This document shows positions 4,651-54,752 of a stretch of DNA of 64,000 bases, piece after piece; position 1 is the first letter of the stretch; each line of letters begins with the position of its first letter. Position numbers and translations under genes: made by a program. The notes beneath the pieces were generated by a model, which saw only the letters and a list, made by a program, of their open reading frames with translations, had not been told where the DNA came from and ran no database searches. Origin of the DNA: a virus; IMG/VR virus record IMGVR_UViG_3300036985_002657, positions 1 to 64,000 of that record; one strand, given 5' to 3'.

Positions 4651-7236
4651 ATGATCAGACTCGCGCTGTACCCCATGCTACCGCAGGCAGCGGTCTCGCT
4701 CGCGCATCCCACAGCGGTCGATCACGACTGCGAACGCTGCGAGCTACACCAAGGCAGGCGTACCGTCTGCATGGCAGCCGAGGGCGCGCCTGGCGGGCTG
4801 CTCGTCGTCGCGGAGTCGCCCGGCAAGATCGAAGATCAGATGGGGCGCGGCTTCGCAGGTGCGGCGGGCAAGTACGTTCGCTCGCTGGTGGCGAAGCACT
4901 GGGGCGGCCCGGTGGCTTACGACCACGGTGTTCGGTGTCAGTCCACCGACGCAGGCGAGAAGGAGATCGCCGCGTGCCGTGTGTTCGGCGCGCGCATCCT
5001 GCTCGACGTGCAGCCGACGCGCATCCTGTGTCTCGGCAACGCGGCGGTGGAGGCGGTGCTCGGACATCGGCCGCCGCTCGCCAGCGCGCAACGCGGTTAC
5101 GGCTTCGTCTTCACCGCGCTCGATGATGCGATCCCCGTGTTCTTCCTGCCTGCCGCCGCGTTCGCGCTGCGCAACAGGTTCGTCAAGGCGGACTTCGAGC
5201 GCGACTTCCAACACGTCCTGACGTGCCCTGCGCCGGAGCCAGACTTCGACGAGCAGACAAACCTGATCGAGACTCGCGGCGATGCCGAGCTCGCCGTGCG
5301 CGTGCTCCAACAGGCTCCTTGGTTCTCCTACGACGTGGAGACCTCGGGCAAGATGGGCAACCCCGACTTCCGCATCGAGGCGCTGACGGCGATGGGCTTC
5401 GGGCAGGGCGATGCCTACACTTGGACCCGCGAGGCTCTGCGCGATCCGAGCATGACAGCGAAGCTGACCCAACTGCTCGCCGATCGCACCGTCGGCAAGA
5501 CGACACAGAACGGCAAGTACGATGATCGCTCCGTTCTTTGCGCGCTGAGCGTGAACGTCGAGGGCACCCGCTTCGATACCCGCCTCGGGCGCAAGCTGCT
5601 CGCCCCCGAGTCCGACGCACGCTTGGACACGCTTGCCTACCTCGTTGGGCTCGGCGGGCACAAGGACGAAGCGGGCGACCAGCTCGCGATCATCTGCAAG
5701 GAACTGCGCCGCCTTGCCAACCCACCTGCGCAACTGACGCCAAAGGGCAACGTGCGGAAGATCAAGCCGCCGTTGTTCCGTGTCGAGGAGTCCGTGCTCC
5801 AGCAGATCCGCGATGGTGAGGACGCGATGGCGTTCGCCTTCCGCTACCTCGATCCCACAACGCTCTACCGCTACAATGCGCGAGACGTGCAGGTGACGCT
5901 GCGCTGCGGCGTCAAGCTCGAAGCCGAACTCGCTGCCGACCCACAGACCAACCGCGTCTGGCGAGAGCTCACCGTCGGAGCCAACACCGCCGTCCGAGCG
6001 ATGGAGCACTGGGGCATCGCGTGCGACCGCCGCGCCGTCGAGATGTTCTCGATCTACTGCGAAGCGCGCATCAAGGACGCGACGAAGACGATCGAGAAGC
6101 ACGTCCCGGGGCTGAACCCCAACTCGCCGAAGCAGGTCGGCGACTTCCTGTTCAACAAGCTCGGGCTCAAGTCGTGGAAGGAGACCAAGAGCGGCGCGCA
6201 GTCTACGGACAACGAGGTGCTCGAGTCGCTCGCCCACAAGCACCCTGCGATCAACGCGCTGGTCAAGAGTCGCAAGTACACCAAGCTCAATGGCACCTAT
6301 GCACGCGGGATGCTGATCCATATTCGCGAAGACGGGCGCATCCACCCAAGCATCCTGATCGACGGCACGCGCACGCTGCGCTTCTCCTGCACCGATCCCA
6401 ACCTCCAGAACATCCCGCGTGCGGAGGGCGACGATGCGGTGGAGGCGGCGATGGCGCGCAACTGCTTCATCGCCCCGCCCGGCAGTCTGCTGCTCGAGCT
6501 GGACTACGCGCAGATCGAAGTGAAGGTGGCGGCGATGTTGGCGGGAGACGCGGTGATGATCGCCGACATCAACTCAGGCATCGACATCCATATGAACAAC
6601 GCGACTGCCTGCTGCACCGTCGCCTGGGGCATCCCGCGCGCGCAGTGGGATGCGATGGACAAGGCGGCGCGCAAGCCCTACCGCTCCAAGATCAAGACTG
6701 CGACCTTCGCCAAGCTGTACGGCAAGACGACGAGTGCGCTCGCCCGAGAGTGGGGCGCGCCAAAGGCCGAGGTCGAGAAGATCGACGCGGTGATCTGGGG
6801 CCGCTACAAACGCCTGGCGAAGTGGTGCGAGGAGCAGATCGCACAGGCGCGCCGCGTCGGCTACGTCGAGACGTGGTGGGACGGGCAGGCTGCCTACCGC
6901 CGCCCGCTGCACAAGGTCGCCGACCCCGAGGAGAACGTGCGCAAGCACGGCGAGAACGAGGCCGTCAACACGCCGGTACAGGGCACGGCGGCGCACTTCA
7001 TGTCGGCATCCCTGCCCCGCGTGCTCGACTGGATACGAGACGACGGCGCGCCCGCCAAGCTCGTCCTCACCGTCCACGACTCGATGATGCTCGAGGTGAA
7101 GGAGAAGTACGTCGATGAGGTGGCGCACGCCGCCCGCGACATCATGTGCAGCCATAACAGCAGCGGTGTGAAGATCACCGCCGATGCGAAGGTCGGGACC
7201 GCGTGGGGCTCGATGCAGGACTACGTCTTCAAGTGA
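4651..7236 (+). CDS. Family A DNA polymerase with N-terminal UDG-like domain
   Basis: An 861-residue replicative polymerase. Residues about 25-195 look like a uracil-DNA-glycosylase-fold domain: CERC at 27-30, Cys40, and the motif AESPGKIEDQMGRGFAG at 54-70. A DEDD 3'-5' exonuclease follows: DVE at 228-230, NGKYD at 287-291, YNARD at 408-412. The polymerase domain has motif A ELDYAQIE (616-623), motif B with Arg678, Lys682, Tyr690, and motif C VHDS (808-811), where most relatives have HDE. UDG-like domains fused to family A polymerases are known, for example in phage SPO1. I chose ATG 4651 because upstream in-frame starts lie inside the inverted repeat. Confidence 0.92.
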   Translation: MIRLALYPMLPQAAVSLAHPTAVDHDCERCELHQGRRTVCMAAEGAPGGLLVVAESPGKIEDQMGRGFAGAAGKYVRSLVAKHWGGPVAYDHGVRCQSTDAGEKEIAACRVFGARILLDVQPTRILCLGNAAVEAVLGHRPPLASAQRGYGFVFTALDDAIPVFFLPAAAFALRNRFVKADFERDFQHVLTCPAPEPDFDEQTNLIETRGDAELAVRVLQQAPWFSYDVETSGKMGNPDFRIEALTAMGFGQGDAYTWTREALRDPSMTAKLTQLLADRTVGKTTQNGKYDDRSVLCALSVNVEGTRFDTRLGRKLLAPESDARLDTLAYLVGLGGHKDEAGDQLAIICKELRRLANPPAQLTPKGNVRKIKPPLFRVEESVLQQIRDGEDAMAFAFRYLDPTTLYRYNARDVQVTLRCGVKLEAELAADPQTNRVWRELTVGANTAVRAMEHWGIACDRRAVEMFSIYCEARIKDATKTIEKHVPGLNPNSPKQVGDFLFNKLGLKSWKETKSGAQSTDNEVLESLAHKHPAINALVKSRKYTKLNGTYARGMLIHIREDGRIHPSILIDGTRTLRFSCTDPNLQNIPRAEGDDAVEAAMARNCFIAPPGSLLLELDYAQIEVKVAAMLAGDAVMIADINSGIDIHMNNATACCTVAWGIPRAQWDAMDKAARKPYRSKIKTATFAKLYGKTTSALAREWGAPKAEVEKIDAVIWGRYKRLAKWCEEQIAQARRVGYVETWWDGQAAYRRPLHKVADPEENVRKHGENEAVNTPVQGTAAHFMSASLPRVLDWIRDDGAPAKLVLTVHDSMMLEVKEKYVDEVAHAARDIMCSHNSSGVKITADAKVGTAWGSMQDYVFK

Positions 7237-40840: not shown

Positions 40841-41085
40841 ACTCCCATCAGCACAGCGCGGCGAAGGTAGGATGCCAACTTCTGCGCGTCACCGAAGTCC
40901 ATGTCGAGCCGGAGCTTCGACAGCCCGCCCGCCATCGCGCGGTTGATCTCAGACTCCATCGCCTGCGCGAGCTCGAGCGCCGCGAAATAGTCGAGCTTCG
41001 CGCCATCGGGCATCGGCGGAACCTGCCCGCCTGTGCGCGCCAGTTGCCGTTCGAGTCCCGCCTTGTGATCGAGTTGTGAAGTCAT
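40837..41085 (-). CDS. 82-residue helical protein, unknown
   Basis: A charged helical protein ([35 protein letters not shown]). ATG 41085 overlaps the collagen-like gene stop as ATGA and the gene ends in another ATGA overlap. Its position downstream of a fibre gene would fit a small fibre-assembly chaperone, but this is only a guess. Confidence 0.6.
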   Translation of the reverse strand: MTSQLDHKAGLERQLARTGGQVPPMPDGAKLDYFAALELAQAMESEINRAMAGGLSKLRLDMDFGDAQKLASYLRRAVLMGV

Positions 41086-42566
41086 GCCCACATCCATCCT
41101 ACGTTCCACTTACCGTAGAGCATCGTACCTTGCCCACCGCGGCTCGGGAAAACGAAACCACGCGCGATGATAGGAGTCGGTTGAAACTTGCCGGGTCCGA
41201 CCGTCTCGAGCGGCTCGGAAATCTGGGACGTATTGTGCGCGCAGATCGTGAATCCGACACCCGCAATCACGAGCCCGACGCGGACTTCGATGGACTCGAC
41301 GAGGTGCTCATCAGCAGGGTGCTCGGCAGTGTCGGCTGCGAGTATCCACGCGAGCGCGACTGATGACGCAGTGATCCCTGCCGCTGCGACAGTGACGGTG
41401 GCATCGGAGCAGCCAGGAAACGCGCCAAAGTCGACAGTCGTGGTGCCGGTGTTCGCACCGCCCGAACCTGCCGGTCCCTGCGGCCCAGCGGGACCAGGCA
41501 TCCCGACACCATCTTCGCCGTCGGCTCCATCCCACCCAGCCGGGCCGTAACCTGCTGGTCCCTGCGCGCCTGTCGTGCCCGCAGCGCCATCGACGCCTCG
41601 GGCTCCGGGCGGCCCCGGCACACCATCGTCGCCATCGATGCCGTCGAACCCTACAGGGCCGGGCGGTCCCGCTGCGCCTGCGACTCCTGCGCTGCCCGCT
41701 GCTCCGGCGACTCCCGGCGGTCCAGGCCAACCCTCGTCGCCGTCAATCCCGTCCAGCCCCGCTCGACCAGTAGCGCCGAGAGCGCCCGCAGCACCAGTCG
41801 GGCCGACTGGCCCCGGTGCCCCGAGCGGTCCCTCCTCGCCATCCAGCCCGTCGAAGCCAGGCGGCCCGGCGACACCCGCCGTGCCTGGCGAACCTGGCGA
41901 ACCCGCGAGTCCTTGAATCCCCTGCGGACCAGGCGGGCCGATGTCGCCGTCGAGCCCGTCAGTTCCATCCTGCCCCGGCGATCCGACTGCGCCTGCGGAA
42001 CCCGCTACACCCGCCGTGCCCTGCGCACCTGCGACACCGGGCGGGCCGAGCGCGCCGTCCTCGCCGTCGTTCCCGTCGAGTCCGTTGAACCCAACCGGAC
42101 CTTGCGCGCCCGTCGATCCAGCGGTGCCTTGGATTCCTTGCGGTCCCTGTGCACCAGCGGGGCCGGGAAACCCGTCGTACCCGTCCAGCCCGTCGACACC
42201 GGGCGCACCGTCGCGCCCCGCTGCGCCAGCGGTCCCTGCGGTGCCCTGCGGACCTTGCGCGCCTGCGATTCCGGGCTGCCCGTCGAGTCCGTCAATCCCG
42301 TCCTCGCCCGGTGCGCCTCGAGGTCCGATCGCGCCAGCGACCCCGGCGATTCCCTGGACTCCCTGCGCGCCCGCAACACCAGGCGGTCCCATCTCCCCGT
42401 CTGCGCCGTCCTCGCCCTGTGGCCCAGGAACACCCGCACCTGCGACGCCTGCGTGCGTGTCGACGTAGTTCTTCGTCGCCGCGTCCTGCGGATCACTAGG
42501 ATCTGGCAGATTGATATTCTTGGCGACGTTCTCGAAGTCGAGATTCGTCTTGATCGGGCGACTCAC
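41082..42566 (-). CDS. Collagen-like fibre protein
   Basis: A 494-residue fibre protein. Residues 1-40 are an attachment region ([20 protein letters not shown], then DAATKNYVD). About 45-375 are collagen-like Gly-X-Y repeats ([20 protein letters not shown] and many more) arranged in longer similar blocks with a recurring DGLDG segment. The C-terminal 120 residues form a beta-rich tip. Such repeats form triple helices and give thin fibres. GTG 42566 overlaps the previous stop as GTGA with GAGG upstream; GTG 42572 is also possible. Confidence 0.85.
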
Positions 42567-43525
42567 ACACACCTCGCAGAGCCGGTACTTGCGGCGAGGA
42601 ACGTCACCGTCGCTTGCGTGATCGTGACGTTGAGCACGTCGGCCTCAACCTCGCGTCCGAGCGAGTCCCAGACTTCGATGCTCGGGAAGTAGCCCAGGTT
42701 ATGATTGATCGTCCAGACGAGTGCGGGCACCGCCTGAACGTGCGTGAACGCAGAGCCCGATCCGTCCCGCCCGTCACGACCCGACATACCAGCCGGGCCA
42801 GGCTCGTACACGACAACCACTCGCGGTCCCGCCGATGCGACGACTGAATGGACGATCACGAGATCATCATCGACCGACGACCCGATGCGCAGATCAAGCA
42901 TCGGCAGAACACCCGCGCGGCGAAGCTGCGTGATGTTCCCCGTGACTGCGAAGATCGCTTTTCGCCAACGCTTCTGCGAGTCGTCGGTCGAGTCCTCGTA
43001 ACGGAGTCCCGTCTTCTCGTAGGTAGCATGACTGCCGTGATAGTGCGGCAGGCGCAGACGCAGCCCGCTCATCCACTCGTGCGGATCAAGCGCGTCCTCG
43101 AGCATGGCGGCGAGCGCCATTCGCTCGACAGGATCAGTCGCCCAGACTTCGACCGTGAGCTCGAGCTTGACCTCGGCGATCTCGCGCAGGAACCGGCCAC
43201 TCCCCGCCAGCTTGATCGTCTTCGGTGTCAGAGTCGCGTCCTCGTACTGCCCTGCGTCGGTCGCGTAGACAACGGCGCTCGGAAAGACTGCGACCATCTC
43301 GGGCTCAGACCACGTCTGAAGCACGGCGAGAAAGCGGCTCTGCCTCCCACCGATCCACTCGATGCTGAGCGACTCGAGGTACTCCGCGAGCCCGCGCGTG
43401 AGCGCAGTCCGCGCGTCGGTTTCCCGATGATCGGTGAACTCCTGCCGAATGTCGGCGCGCTGGACTAGTTGCGTGCCGCGCTGCGGTGGCGGTGTCTGCG
43501 CACTGTCGGTGTCCGCGTAGCGCAT
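42563..43525 (-). CDS. Structural protein with short collagen-like stretch and fibre-tip C-terminus
   Basis: A 320-residue protein. The first 200 residues are alpha/beta (ALTRGLAEYLESLSIEWIGG; WATDPVERMALAAMLEDAL). A short collagen-like GPAGMSGRDGRDGSGS precedes a C-terminal 60-residue beta module (ALVWTINHNLGYFPSIEVWD, then VTFLAAS) found on many phage fibres. It may link the connector to the collagen-like fibre encoded next. ATG 43525 overlaps the upstream stop by one base; the TTG before it is not needed. Confidence 0.65.
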   Translation of the reverse strand: MRYADTDSAQTPPPQRGTQLVQRADIRQEFTDHRETDARTALTRGLAEYLESLSIEWIGGRQSRFLAVLQTWSEPEMVAVFPSAVVYATDAGQYEDATLTPKTIKLAGSGRFLREIAEVKLELTVEVWATDPVERMALAAMLEDALDPHEWMSGLRLRLPHYHGSHATYEKTGLRYEDSTDDSQKRWRKAIFAVTGNITQLRRAGVLPMLDLRIGSSVDDDLVIVHSVVASAGPRVVVVYEPGPAGMSGRDGRDGSGSAFTHVQAVPALVWTINHNLGYFPSIEVWDSLGREVEADVLNVTITQATVTFLAASTGSARCV

Positions 43526-45028: not shown

Positions 45029-45388
45029 TTACCCTACCACCTTGCGGAACTCGACGCCTGCGTCGGCCATGCGCTGCTCGATGTTCGGCCCGTGCGACGC
45101 TTCCGAGAACAGCTTGCCCGGCTTGAGCGTGAGCGTCTGCCCGCCCCACGACACCGTGCACTGCGTCAGCACTTCGTAAACGGCCAGCGGCGCAGGCGCG
45201 GGCGGGACAGCCAGGGGCGGCTCGACAGGCGGCTTCGCCGACTTCTGTTTGCCTGCCTTGTCTGGCACAAGCACGGACGGAGGATCAGATGAGCTCTGCG
45301 ACTCACTCAGCGCGTCCGCAGCCCCGGTGTCGAGGGGGGAAACGGCAGCCGGAACCTTGTGCGCAGCGAGCGGGTCTTTAGAGCTCAT
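45029..45388 (-). CDS. Pro/Ala-rich small protein, unknown
   Basis: A 119-residue protein: the first 65 residues are a Pro/Ser/Ala-rich linker (PPVEPPLAVPPAPAPLAV), and the last 55 look folded (VLTQCTVSWGGQTLTLKPGK). GGAGG lies just upstream of the ATG. The ribosome site, start and next two codons form one arm of a perfect 22-bp inverted repeat whose other arm lies inside this gene. Confidence 0.65.
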   Translation of the reverse strand: MSSKDPLAAHKVPAAVSPLDTGAADALSESQSSSDPPSVLVPDKAGKQKSAKPPVEPPLAVPPAPAPLAVYEVLTQCTVSWGGQTLTLKPGKLFSEASHGPNIEQRMADAGVEFRKVVG

Positions 45389-45401
45389 CTGATCCTCCGT
45401 C
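45276..45401. repeat. Perfect 22-bp inverted repeat spanning a start codon
   Basis: Arms at 45276-45297 and 45380-45401 are exact reverse complements of 22 bases enclosing 82 bases. On the minus strand the 45380-45401 arm contains the GGAGG, ATG and codons AGC TCT of the gene at 45029-45388; the other arm encodes part of its Ser/Pro linker. If the inside were inverted, the frame would meet a TAG after about 30 codons. It could be an mRNA hairpin controlling translation or a site of inversion. Confidence 0.85.
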
Positions 45402-45633
45402 GTTGAAGAAGTAGCAGCGTGGCGAACAGCAATCGGATCTGCGTGTTTACGTCTGGATTCACGAGCCGACGAAGCTCGATGAGCAGGGATCGAAGTTCAC
45501 TCCACAGGCCAGTCAGCGCGAGTCCGAAGAAACGTGAAGACGTGATGCCCTTGATCGTGTTCCTGCGAAGGACCGTATCATGCCGCCGAAACAGGGTCGC
45601 GGTACTAGAGATCAGCCCAGCTAAGGGGGTCAC
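45385..45633 (-). CDS. Possible small protein, uncertain
   Basis: A frame of 82 residues from GTG 45633 overlapping the next start as ATGA. The sequence has a hydrophobic C-terminal stretch (IRLLFATLLLLQRRRIR) and is basic. The start lies within the structured spacer and has no good ribosome site. The ATGA overlap argues for it, the base composition and lack of pattern argue against it. Confidence 0.35.
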   Translation of the reverse strand: MTPLAGLISSTATLFRRHDTVLRRNTIKGITSSRFFGLALTGLWSELRSLLIELRRLVNPDVNTQIRLLFATLLLLQRRRIR

Positions 45634-45863
45634 TCAGGTTTGCGAACCCCGTTACAGAAGGCCATCAGTGGATCATGCCGAAGCAATCACTACCTTGTTA
45701 CCGAAGTAACGGCCTTCCTACAGGGGAACATCGGGAGCTTGGCGAGGTTCCAGACCGAAATCTGAAACAGGGCTCCCGACTCGTGGCGGGCCTCAATGCC
45801 TAGAGGCGGACCACAGAGACGGTGCGCGCCCGATGGCTTTCGCCGCCAGGCACGCGGCGGCGA
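45634..45863 (-). ncRNA. Structured spacer after the capsid gene, candidate structured RNA
   Basis: No convincing gene lies in these 230 bases. On the minus strand, a 7-bp outer stem (45711-45717 with 45657-45663) encloses two hairpins capped by C(UUCG)G loops: a 5-bp stem at 45697-45710 and a longer bulged stem at 45667-45691. Further stems are CGCCGCC/GGCGGCG (45841-45847 with 45856-45862, directly after the capsid stop), TCGGGAGC/GCTCCCGA (45731-45738 with 45772-45779), GCCTC/GAGGC (45790-45807) and GGGGT/ACCCC (45626-45650). UUCG appears only in the minus-strand reading, in line with transcription. It may stabilise capsid mRNA, terminate, or be an independent RNA. Confidence 0.6.
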
Positions 45864-47267
45864 TCACTCGCCGTGCTCGACACAGAGCGCGCGCTTGTAG
45901 CGCGAGGCGTCGCCAGTCGCGGCGTCGGAGCGCACCGGCCAGTCGCCGATGAACTTCCACGAAGTCGCCACCTGATCCTGCAACCGATTCAGCGGACCAC
46001 GGATGATCATCTGGATGCGGTCGGACATGATCTCGATGCCGTTGTTGACGATGCGGGGCTCGGCGACTGCGCCCATGATGCCCGCCTCAGTGATCAGCGC
46101 GTCGAGGTTCTGGTGATACTCCATCACGCCGCCCTGCGCCGTGAACAGCATCCGGTGAACCTTGACACCCGACGTGACGCCGCCCGCGTAGAGCTCGCCG
46201 ACGAATGGATCGCGCGCGTCGTAGGCCGCCGTGAGGCCGCCGACAACGGTGCTCGGGATCGGGCACTCGCTGTTTCGGAGGAACACCGTCGAAAGCATCT
46301 CGCCGAGGGCGAACTGCTTATACATATAGTAATCGGGCAGTGCCGTCAAAAGGCGCTGGAACTCGTTGTCGTTGAACACCTTGGCCTGCGACACCGGATC
46401 GATATGCGCGTGAAAGCGCATATCGGGATGCTCGGGCACGTTCTGCTCCCAGAAGTGCGAGATCGCAGAGCGAATGTCCGACAGCGTGGGAAGGTCGGTG
46501 TTGCCGACCGAATCGACCGAGTTGCCGCCGCCGACGCGCACGAGGTAGGTGCGGTCGTCCGACAGGACGTATGCACGGTCGAGCGCGTTCACGAGAGCCG
46601 CGTCGATCGTGACCGTGCCGGGGCCGTACTCGTCACCAGGAGTGTCGGGCGTGAACCCGATGATGTTGCGCGACTTCTCCGTGGCGTTGTCGAAAATCTT
46701 GATCCCGAGCGGATTGCTCGAGCTCACGAGATCGAACTTGACGACACTCGCGCCGCTGGTGTTCGGGTTGCGCGCGCGGGTGAACCCGTTGAGGCGCTTG
46801 AGGCGGATCGTCGTCACCGCACCGAACGCGCCGTCAAGGACAGTGTGCCCCGAGAGGCCCGCGCCATAGAGCACGTTGCGGACCTTGCGGTTGAGCGTCT
46901 GCGACGCCTGCATCCCGAGCTGATGCGCGTTGCGCATGAACAGGTCGACGATCGCGCTGATGCTGGTGGGCATATGCGTGTCGATCGATCCGCTGTACTG
47001 CTGAATCTGCGCCTGCCACTGTTCGACCGAGTAGGTCGTCGGGACCGGATCGGTGCCCGGAACCGTCGGCCTCATGTCCACCGGGATGAGCCCCGGCGCA
47101 CTGAAGATCATCGTGTCGCCGACGTTCTGCGGCCACTCGACCGGCGTCGCCTCACCCCGGAACAGCATCCGGGGAAAGAGCGCGTCATGGAAAGCGCGCT
47201 CGAGCATATTGCTCTGAACGACCGCGCGGACTTGCGGTGACTGTAGGATCGTTGAGAAGTCGGCCAT
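45864..47267 (-). CDS. Major capsid protein
   Basis: A 467-residue protein between scaffold and connector genes. It has the general pattern of HK97-fold capsids: an N-terminal arm (SPQVRAVVQSNMLERAFHDA), a P-domain-like region (RSAISHFWEQNVPEHPDMRF), and a late ALITEAGIMGAVAEPRIVNN. No N-terminal pro-domain is evident. Length and position after a coiled-coil scaffold make it the best candidate for the major head protein. A hairpin at 47315-47349 lies in its leader. Confidence 0.8.
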   Translation of the reverse strand: MADFSTILQSPQVRAVVQSNMLERAFHDALFPRMLFRGEATPVEWPQNVGDTMIFSAPGLIPVDMRPTVPGTDPVPTTYSVEQWQAQIQQYSGSIDTHMPTSISAIVDLFMRNAHQLGMQASQTLNRKVRNVLYGAGLSGHTVLDGAFGAVTTIRLKRLNGFTRARNPNTSGASVVKFDLVSSSNPLGIKIFDNATEKSRNIIGFTPDTPGDEYGPGTVTIDAALVNALDRAYVLSDDRTYLVRVGGGNSVDSVGNTDLPTLSDIRSAISHFWEQNVPEHPDMRFHAHIDPVSQAKVFNDNEFQRLLTALPDYYMYKQFALGEMLSTVFLRNSECPIPSTVVGGLTAAYDARDPFVGELYAGGVTSGVKVHRMLFTAQGGVMEYHQNLDALITEAGIMGAVAEPRIVNNGIEIMSDRIQMIIRGPLNRLQDQVATSWKFIGDWPVRSDAATGDASRYKRALCVEHGE

Positions 47268-52448: not shown

Positions 52449-52762
52449 AGCACACCTCGGGTCAGAACAGACAGCGACCAGTTCCACAGGCGGGTCTTGA
52501 GGCCGCAGACGGTGGCGATAACCCACCACCGCCAGAGAACGAACCAGGCGAGTCGAAGTGCTGCCTGCGGTGTGATCGACAGCACGACCGGCGAGCTTCG
52601 CCCGTAGTACAGGTCGAAGGCGTCACCGCGCGAGATCACCGTCAACCGCCGCCCGTCGAGTTCGACGTGACTCCACGCCTGCGCCGCACCGGGCGGGCGC
52701 AGCGTGCCGCCGTCCTGCACAACGAGCTTCTGCGACACCCACAGAGCGACCCGCTCACTCAT
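52445..52762 (-). CDS. 105-residue protein with hydrophobic C-terminal segment
   Basis: The N-terminus is a beta-like domain (AWSHVELDGRRLTVISRGDA), the C-terminus has a Trp-rich hydrophobic segment (LRLAWFVLWRWWVIATVCGL), which could be a membrane anchor. ATG 52762 overlaps the HNH gene end by eight bases. Function unknown. Confidence 0.6.
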   Translation of the reverse strand: MSERVALWVSQKLVVQDGGTLRPPGAAQAWSHVELDGRRLTVISRGDAFDLYYGRSSPVVLSITPQAALRLAWFVLWRWWVIATVCGLKTRLWNWSLSVLTRGVL

Positions 52763-53156
52763 CGTTCTGCGCACGGTCGGCGTCATGCACGGTATCGTGA
52801 CACGACTTGCAGATCGTGACGATGCTGTTCGGGTCGTTGGAGTGATCCTTCTTCTTCAGCCAAGCCGACGCAGGGTTCTCGAGTCCGCCCTTGTGGTGTA
52901 ACTGAATCCCGCCCGTATCGGCCCCGCCCTTGCGCCCGCAGACTTTGCAGGTGTAGTCGTCGCGCCGGAAGACGAACAGCACGAGTGACGGGCTCAACCC
53001 CCCGCGTCCCGCGCTGGCGAGGACTACGCCCTTCGCCTTGGCTTCCATGCGCAGCTTGTGGAGCGCGTGACGCTCCTCGCGCGAAAGCTCCGGCTTGCCG
53101 CCCTCTCGATCCTTATTCCGTTTCCAGACCTCGAGTGCGCGCGCCACAGTGATCAC
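52755..53156 (-). CDS. HNH endonuclease in head/packaging block
   Basis: A 133-residue HNH nuclease: CKVCGRKGG, then LHHKGG, NSIVTICKSCHD form a zinc-bound beta-beta-alpha-metal fold. HNH proteins near portal/terminase genes often assist DNA cutting during packaging in cos phages, which would hint at cohesive ends here. GTG 53156 overlaps the upstream stop. Confidence 0.8.
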   Translation of the reverse strand: MITVARALEVWKRNKDREGGKPELSREERHALHKLRMEAKAKGVVLASAGRGGLSPSLVLFVFRRDDYTCKVCGRKGGADTGGIQLHHKGGLENPASAWLKKKDHSNDPNSIVTICKSCHDTVHDADRAQNDE

Positions 53157-53617
53157 CCTTTGACGTAGCGTTTCTTACCGCTCTTGCTGATCACGAACTC
53201 GCCGCCCTTCTTGCCAGTTTGGACGGCTTGGTGCATGGCCTGATCATGCGGAGTAGCGCGGCCTGCGGTGCCATGCGACGCAGAGTGCATGGCGCGGGCG
53301 CGCTCGGCTGCGTGAGTGCGCTCCATCGACTCACGCATCGTCATCATACCTTGGCGGCGACTCTCCTGCGCCATCGGCGCGTGCATCGCTTCCGAACGCT
53401 TCCTCATCGCCTCGGCCTCGTGACGCGCCGCGTCGGCGTGGTGCATGTCAGCGATGCCGGGAGAGAGCCGCGCCTGCTCGCGATGATAGGTAGCGACGCG
53501 ATCGTGCTGATCAGGCGTCATCGCGGCATCGCGCTCGGCGTCGCTCATCTCCGAAGCACGACGACGAGACGACATTCCAAACGAACCACGAACCGGACCA
53601 CGAGATCGCATGACCAT
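53153..53617 (-). CDS. Met/His/Ala-rich protein with KGG..KSGKKRYV tail
   Basis: A 154-residue basic helical protein with many Met, His, Ala and Arg residues (SRRQGMMTMRESMERTHAAE). It ends in TGKKGGEFVISKSGKKRYV, a tail shared almost exactly with the next gene (53628). AGGAGGTGAG precedes the ATG. The tail resembles a short C-terminal module seen on various phage head proteins. Confidence 0.65.
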   Translation of the reverse strand: MVMRSRGPVRGSFGMSSRRRASEMSDAERDAAMTPDQHDRVATYHREQARLSPGIADMHHADAARHEAEAMRKRSEAMHAPMAQESRRQGMMTMRESMERTHAAERARAMHSASHGTAGRATPHDQAMHQAVQTGKKGGEFVISKSGKKRYVKG

Positions 53618-53627
53618 CGCTCACCTC

Positions 53628-53885
53628 CTAGACGTATCGCTTCTTGCCGCTCTTGCTGATCACGAACTGGCCGCCCTTCTTGCCAGTCTGGGTGACATAA
53701 GCCTTCCCGCCGACCGCCGTTGACCCAGCACTAAGCCGCGCAGCTTTCTCGCCGATTGATTCTGTTCGAGCCTGCCCACGGTGCGTCGCTCGCGCCGCAG
53801 CCACTCGGGCCTTGTGCGCGGTAGCCGACTCGCCAGGTCGCCGGATTACATACCGTGTATCAAAACGTCCAGCTCCTACAGCCAT
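53628..53885 (-). CDS. Small basic protein with KGG..KSGKKRYV tail
   Basis: An 85-residue basic protein (ATAHKARVAAARATHRGQAR) ending in TGKKGGQFVISKSGKKRYV. Its DNA over this tail is about 90 percent identical to that of the previous gene, showing a duplication. The two proteins differ elsewhere. The tail may direct proteins to the same target, for example portal or prohead. Confidence 0.65.
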   Translation of the reverse strand: MAVGAGRFDTRYVIRRPGESATAHKARVAAARATHRGQARTESIGEKAARLSAGSTAVGGKAYVTQTGKKGGQFVISKSGKKRYV

Positions 53886-53898
53886 CGCTCATCTCCTC

Positions 53899-54306
53899 TC
53901 AGGTGCCGGGACCGGCAACGATCTTGTCAACGCCGGGACCACGATTGATCTCGACGATGCAGTGACTCGGTGCCTTCGCCAACTGCCGCTCCATCTGCGG
54001 AGTGCAGGACTTGCAGGCGTAGACGACCGACACGCGGAAGTAGGGCTTCGCCATGCCTTCGCTGTCCTTGATCTGGACGATATGGGGCATGAGCTCCTCC
54101 GGCCCCATCGCGGCGATCGCCTGCACCGCCGGGTTCTTCATCGCCTCTTTGATCTCCATCATCACGAGCGCCCGAGTCATCGGTCGCATCCCACAGCCGG
54201 AGCAGCGCGCGTTGATCGGGAAGGCGTACCTCGCGTGAACTTCCTCGGCAGTGCGACGCCCGCCAAACAGCTTCTGTCGGTGTATCGGAGTCACGGTGCT
54301 CATCAT
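53899..54306 (-). CDS. Zinc-ribbon-like protein
   Basis: A 135-residue protein with CSGCGM near residue 35 and CKSC near residue 98, which together could form one zinc site. The rest is alpha/beta (VMMEIKEAMKNPAVQAIAAM). It starts at ATG 54306 or 54303, overlapping the HAD gene stop. No family recognised. Confidence 0.6.
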   Translation of the reverse strand: MMSTVTPIHRQKLFGGRRTAEEVHARYAFPINARCSGCGMRPMTRALVMMEIKEAMKNPAVQAIAAMGPEELMPHIVQIKDSEGMAKPYFRVSVVYACKSCTPQMERQLAKAPSHCIVEINRGPGVDKIVAGPGT

Positions 54307-54752
54307 GCCCTCATCGTAGTTGGCTCAGCCGCGCCGTACAAGTCCACCATGCCGCGCCAGCCGTCTTCGTTGAACGGTGCGGCGCGGTCATCGATGAACA
54401 CGTCGGCTCCTGGCTTGCCGGAGTGTTCCCACACCAGCGCGAAAACGCCAGGCAGTTCCTTCTTCACGAAGGCGAGCATCTGGTCATAGCGTGCCTGGTT
54501 GATCTGCCGACTGCGCTCCGCAGTCGCCTTGTGCGCCTTGCGGACTCCTGCCGCTACCAACGGGTCGATCACACTGGCATCTCGCAGCCACGGGCTCGCT
54601 CGCCCGCTGAACAGGATCAGAACGTGGCCCGCCGCCTTCATGCGCAGCAGGGCCGACTTCGCGCCAGGCAGGAACCGCAGCGGCGTCGTCGTGTCGTCGT
54701 AGGGCTGAGCGTCGCTGACGATCGTGCCGTCGAAGTCGATGGCGATGATCAT
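54303..54752 (-). CDS. HAD-superfamily phosphatase
   Basis: A 149-residue HAD hydrolase with motif I DFDGT (Asp6 nucleophile, Asp8), motif II LFSGRAS, a Lys in the middle and motif III-like DVFIDDRAAP. This resembles phage HAD proteins related to the phosphatase part of polynucleotide kinases. It might process nucleotides or DNA ends. Its place between portal and head genes is unusual for metabolism. The ATG overlaps the upstream stop as ATGA. Confidence 0.75.
   Translation of the reverse strand: MIIAIDFDGTIVSDAQPYDDTTTPLRFLPGAKSALLRMKAAGHVLILFSGRASPWLRDASVIDPLVAAGVRKAHKATAERSRQINQARYDQMLAFVKKELPGVFALVWEHSGKPGADVFIDDRAAPFNEDGWRGMVDLYGAAEPTTMRA

Follow-up and report, generated by a model that had tools for sequence, protein, structure and literature searches.

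To our knowledge, very few large structured phage RNAs have been described, and almost none has an assigned function. GOLLD is a large phage RNA with a conserved 3′ region and a variable 5′ region that contains or adjoins tRNAs (PMC12286853). Other points of comparison are ROOL, an ornate phage RNA with pseudoknots that occurs near tRNA islands and whose function is unknown; HEARO, the omega RNA of IscB-type nucleases, a structured RNA that co-occurs with an HNH protein; and the phi29 packaging RNA (pRNA). The window analysed here, a 64,000-nucleotide stretch of an IMG/VR virus record (IMGVR_UViG_3300036985_002657), carries a 475-nt gap between the gene for the major capsid protein (467 aa, 45864–47267, minus strand; PHROG 1357 major head protein, E 9e-7) and the next gene, which encodes a 119-aa protein with no Pfam match and no assigned function (45029–45388, minus strand) whose DPLEAAK-type homologue follows the RNA in relatives. 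The existence of an RNA between these two genes is near certain. It reaches from the capsid stop codon to the next gene start (45389–45863, minus strand), its exact ends not being determined, and dozens of metagenomic relatives have in the same gap an RNA of 400–670 nt with two conserved landmarks, a hairpin and an H-type pseudoknot. This is a new class within the broad kind of large structured phage RNA, for which structure, sense strand, ancestry, single location, repeated loss and co-occurrence with an HNH gene are established.

No described family accounts for this RNA. Rfam 15 gave no match at the gathering score in the window or 20 relatives and none at E <= 1 in nine relatives; limits relaxed to between E <= 1 and E <= 10 likewise brought up nothing, apart from a chance snoRNA match below the cut-off in the window. 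A 2017 survey reportedly listed 224 bacterial RNA candidates, families that should be in Rfam. No capsid-linked RNA of comparable kind was found in the open-access PMC literature searched (PMC2864571 and PMC12286853 included). The HNH protein that accompanies this RNA, at ~130 aa, is too small for RuvC + HNH and is encoded kilobases away, in contrast to the HEARO arrangement; the RNA's neighbours are the capsid and the 119-aa protein, not an IscB-type RuvC + HNH protein, and in 6 records a comparison of the RNA with the genome that encodes it gave no guide-like match above shuffles (the apparent L050 match is its own unmasked copy). The phi29 pRNA, to which the new RNA would be akin as a phage RNA of head or packaging if our preferred explanation holds, is unrelated in size and architecture, and here such a role is only inferred. 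Further candidates were rejected: a group I or group II intron (no Rfam match, with capsid and next gene intact on either side), a Pistol-like ribozyme, suggested by a pseudoknot followed by UUAAA (no Rfam match), and a tRNA or tmRNA (none found by ARAGORN in the window). A T-box riboswitch was considered because UGGAACCGC resembles the T-box UGGNACCGC by eye; there was no model match and no aminoacyl- or tRNA-related gene downstream.

In form the RNA resembles GOLLD, which invites the reading that this too is an abundant late RNA that oligomerises, as GOLLD or ROOL would, without a dedicated protein partner. Size, phage host and the conserved 3′ and variable 5′ parts are similar, and tRNA genes lie in the variable part in L074, L076, L077 and L116, as for GOLLD (PMC12286853). 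Yet the RNA matches no such family in Rfam, is usually 475 nt where GOLLD often exceeds 800, keeps to a fixed spot behind the capsid gene, whereas ROOL is found near tRNA islands, and co-occurs with an HNH gene, a link that an RNA-only assembly leaves unexplained. We consider this reading quite unlikely.

The RNA begins with variable 5′ arms (all minus strand). Folding places a hairpin beside the capsid stop codon (45824–45855), which differs between relatives; a second stem (GUCUCUGUGG..CCAC.., 45780–45820), whose counterparts in L001 and L003 look alike by eye; and a third stem (45730–45780) with the conserved loop ..GAACCUCGCCAAGC.., of which CCAAGC and a UUCG-capped hairpin are retained in L001, L003 and L116. 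Next comes a three-way junction (45657–45717), in which a 7-bp outer stem, GAAGGCC/GGCCUUC, encloses two UUCG-capped hairpins. Relatives form this outer stem from different base pairs, as seen in L001 (GGAGAGA/UCUCUCC), L022 (GGUGCCG/CGGUACC), L116 (GGUGGU/ACCACC) and L003 (GGG..GAUC/GAUC..CCC). The flanks UGUAGG...C[CU]GUAA surround it in the window, L001, L022 and L116, and in L003 with an altered 3′ flank; the UUCG caps are common to L001 and L003. Support for the two-hairpin element comes from only five sequences, which makes it a feature of the window's own branch. A sequence-only reading of the window had proposed the junction, with stems on both sides of it, and the fold bears it out on both. 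The 230 nt that it allotted to the feature are indeed structured, but the RNA continues through 45405–45633 to a total of 475 nt; that account missed the downstream half, which holds the conserved hairpin and the pseudoknot, as well as how deeply the RNA is conserved and that an HNH gene accompanies it.

Within this downstream half, a gene-like 82-aa ORF overlaps the RNA (45385–45633, minus strand). It is not a gene: stops break its frame in L001, L003 and L116. Nucleotide blocks such as CUGAUCUCUNGNACCGCNNNCCUGUUUCGGCGGCAUGAU persist across the same region in relatives, so the RNA fills the whole gap. Neither an intrinsic terminator nor a sigma-70 promoter was found in the window spacer, and termination was rejected as the purpose of the 3′ domain, as a hairpin followed by a T-run occurs in the last 60 nt of just 9 of 58 spacers and not in that of the window.

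The first landmark is the conserved hairpin, termed element A (45592–45650, minus strand), in which GC AAA CC [stem] GG NACC GC stands inside a covarying outer stem, the internal loop being GCAAACC...GGAACCGC. From an alignment of 35 loci, with the window left out, a model (R1) was built; these loci have in common the order outer stem-GC-AAA-CC-C-[stem]-U-GG-AACC-GC-outer stem. Covariation reached 0.549, against 0.137 +/- 0.019 in shuffled alignments (0/500) and no more than 0.138 in slid controls, and changes on both sides in some sequences were seen at 6 of 8 outer pairs and at all pairs except CC/GG and GC/GC. Searched against both strands of the 64-kb window, R1 returned element A as its top match (45592–45649; 16.4 bits, E about 0.12). 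Taken by itself this match is weak, yet its position is exactly the homologous one; the apical arm is longer in the window copy, which has UAGUACCGC in place of UGGAACCGC. A loose hairpin pattern run over 2.9 million IMG/VR contigs gave 122 matches, 39 of them with paired stems, and 38 of these 39 follow this capsid gene at a distance of 170–800 nt and in the same orientation, the remaining one being cut by a contig end. The records tested hold one copy each.

The second landmark is the H-type pseudoknot CGAGC-UU-CGUC-G-GCUCG-UGAAUCCA-GACG (45450–45478, minus strand), about 90 nt ahead of the next gene. Both of its stems covary (0/500 shuffles): across 14 loci, window included, 97.5% of cells pair, with covariation of 0.317 against 0.091 +/- 0.024. 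Under the same search rules, strong pseudoknots occur in 16 of 56 spacers (29%) and in 0.4% of shuffles. Other relatives carry a second version, CCC-UA-CGNNN-GGG-UA-NNNCG; as these were chosen for their pairing, an unbiased test is provided by the first set alone. The 3′ domain should be closed by a helix whose 5′ strand is the conserved GGCGGC at 45582–45587 (minus strand), pairing with GCUGCU at the 3′ end; this helix is plausible, although a cross-locus test of GGCGGC/GCCGCC was not significant (16.3 versus 15.5 +/- 0.4). The 3′ end is marked by GCUGCUACUUCUUC (45405–45418, minus strand; GCCGCCACUUUU in relatives), conserved 17–30 nt ahead of the next start codon.

Could an untranslated gap simply fold this way by chance or through its GC content? 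Judged on folding energy alone, nothing sets the full 475-nt window spacer apart (z about -1.3), a point in favour of such an explanation, while a 301-nt stretch of the window has z = -2.95 with no shuffle equally stable and homologous long spacers have a median z of -6.0 (n=58). The covariation refutes chance folding, the invariant loops and strand-specific UUCG caps also speak against it, and we regard it as practically ruled out. The opposite strand of the long spacers folds equally stably, so energy alone does not give the strand. A UUCG cap gives a hairpin its special stability only in RNA of the sense that carries it, and such hairpins number 67 in the capsid sense against 3 antisense across 52 spacers (p about 1e-16), compared with 5 and 3 in a control, the coding DNA just downstream. 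The window itself has three in sense and none antisense, in line with the sequence-only reading, which saw stable UUCG loops in that sense only; its broader proposal of a branched functional RNA in the capsid sense after the capsid gene is likewise supported, covariation and conservation both being strong.

A capsid protein search yielded 80 IMG/VR loci, to which more were added by alignment. Beyond IMG/VR there were L127, a contig of a bacterial MAG filed under Armatimonadetes, and only three distant isolates (25–28% identity). In that MAG the capsid gene occurs on two separate contigs, C338 and C172, which may hint at a host or merely reflect the binning of phage contigs. Both isolates that were checked lack the long gap (Streptomyces phage Kromp, 58 nt; Komagataeibacter phage phiKX1, overlapping genes). 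Within the metagenomic group the gap is bimodal: one form measures about 80 nt and in many cases holds a simple hairpin, the other 400–670 nt. On the capsid tree the long form appears in all branches, the deepest included, so the RNA is old and has been lost repeatedly, with a gap of ~80 nt left behind; the short form requires about 6 changes, at least 4 of them forced by well-supported branches. (This count of changes mistakenly took L123, L057 and L054 as long, whereas the count of contrasts given below scores them as not long.) Model R1 found no RNA relocated elsewhere in short-spacer phages, but at that threshold it also misses the divergent window copy. A subgroup, L070–L073, has spacers of a different appearance, 250–360 nt long and clearly structured, that lack the conserved hairpin; the HNH match in L073 is no more than weak.

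In several relatives, the stretch from the capsid gene to the RNA core has received insertions of HNH-type or other genes or of tRNA-Met and tRNA-Tyr genes (L068, L074, L076, L077, L085, L116, L121). The tRNA genes in the spacer, 5′ of the core, are at 6641–6714 in L074, 2567–2641 in L116, 4531–4617 in L076 and 2881–2967 in L077. From such insertions it may be inferred that the RNA could be released from the capsid mRNA by RNase processing. The distance from hairpin to capsid gene varies, that to the following genes is tight, and no clear insertion between RNA and next gene was seen. A cis-acting role would also suit an RNA that never leaves its position ahead of the next gene: as the 3′ end of the capsid mRNA, the 5′ leader of the next gene or both, it would set the ratio of capsid to downstream protein by affecting mRNA processing, stability or translation, and a ligand or protein might act at the hairpin or pseudoknot. 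The strict position in every phage, a pseudoknot that in the parsed loci lies 63–151 nt (mostly 70–120) before the next start codon, and insertions on the 5′ side (L068, L074, L085, L116, L121) with no clear case on the 3′ side are all in its favour, as is a Shine-Dalgarno sequence slightly less open with the RNA than without it (0.44 versus 0.55, p = 0.009). However, short-spacer relatives cope with a gap of ~80 nt, a multi-domain RNA of 475 nt is excessive as a leader, and the HNH link is again unexplained; on balance, a cis-acting element seems rather unlikely.

That link emerged from gene content. Seven records with the RNA, the window included, were compared with four without it from two separate branches. 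Sixteen window ORFs had relatives in all seven, three of which were antisense shadows, and of the 13 real core genes only one was present in 7/7 records with the RNA and 0/4 without: the gene for a 133-aa HNH protein (52755–53156, minus strand). A 359-aa family that had also seemed linked to the RNA was discarded as the antisense shadow of the gene at 54303–54752. The protein carries an HNH domain only, a C-terminal HNH zinc finger (PHROG HNH families, E down to 1.6e-10), together with a conserved N-terminal GGLPPSLVLGVMRRD block; no RNA-binding domain was recognised in it. When 50 records were searched by profile, 26 had it, and each of these carries the long RNA. Fragments with too little sequence upstream were left out of the counts; the gene was missing from the seven RNA-less records whose upstream sequence reaches 7.5 kb or more and from three minimal-RNA records with pseudoknot and no hairpin (L004, L016 and, in a second batch, L112). 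All six records of this second batch with the full RNA and enough upstream sequence had it (L011, L001, L131, L110, L096, L127), as did every other such record, down to the deepest branch, L083. The genes keep a constant order (portal - g135 - HNH - g371 - ... - scaffold - capsid), and RNA-less phages retain portal, g135, g371 and the rest without HNH. Fisher's test, ignoring kinship between phages, gives 2e-7 for the association. On the capsid tree the independent contrasts number just 2 if supported branches alone are used and at most 4; they all agree but are too few for significance; because related phages are not independent, the link is a strong lead and not proof.

HNH proteins are often homing nucleases, and nuclease and RNA might instead spread and vanish together as a homing module, without forming a complex, if the enzyme cut at or near the RNA-less gap. 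Other HNH-like genes are indeed inserted beside the RNA in relatives. Sporadic homing genes, however, do not keep to one conserved slot, here 3.9–12.9 kb from the RNA, nor are they universal in full-RNA phages down to L083, and the strong covariation reveals selection on the RNA itself. We judge a homing module distinctly improbable.

Because the RNA is lost only where HNH is also absent, the two probably work together. The protein shares two traits with phage packaging HNH proteins, an HNH domain and a gene within the head and packaging cluster, between portal and capsid; small HNH proteins, of about this size, have been described as parts of the machines with which phages package DNA (PMC5304195). 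The explanation we favour, tentatively and at less than even chance, is a new class of large structured phage RNA that partners the small HNH protein in a ribonucleoprotein of head assembly or of packaging and genome cutting. One RNA per genome, encoded in the late (head) operon directly after the capsid gene, would be co-transcribed with the capsid mRNA at capsid level and released by processing, both steps being inferred without expression data. It folds into variable 5′ arms, the conserved internal-loop hairpin and a pseudoknot domain, and might bind the HNH protein of the same operon through that hairpin; the resulting particle would then act in head assembly or in DNA packaging and genome cutting. 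Since the minimal, pseudoknot-only RNAs occur without the HNH gene, dependence on HNH would lie with the hairpin and the large 5′ arms. Partnership and role alike are inferred, with no expression or binding data; co-occurrence is not interaction, and the four RNA-less genomes were the discovery set. Going further, the large RNA may recruit or control a miniature HNH nuclease in capsid assembly or packaging, as an unknown phage ribonucleoprotein that has been a two-part module since the origin of the group and has been lost as a unit; this is possible but doubtful. If the partner is right, a structured RNA would be linked to a small HNH nuclease outside the IscB/Cas9 lineage. With the RNA tied to a single place in the head operon, inferred to be highly expressed, and a partner candidate in hand from co-loss, its function is directly testable.

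Several other genes of the window merit mention. Beside the HNH gene, the gene at 54303–54752 (minus strand) encodes a 149-aa HAD-like protein with weak Pfam matches to HAD and PNKP phosphatase domains; present in 7/7 records with the RNA but also in 1/4 without, it is a second, weaker candidate member of the same module. A 154-aa protein (53153–53617, minus strand) has an VISKSGKKRYVKG-type tail that matches Pfam PBCV_basic_adap just above the cut-off, and the neighbouring ORF at 53628–53885 has a nearly identical tail. In the tail region, a 496-aa protein (41082–42572, minus strand) contains collagen-like G-X-Y repeats (Pfam Collagen, E 3.5e-48).
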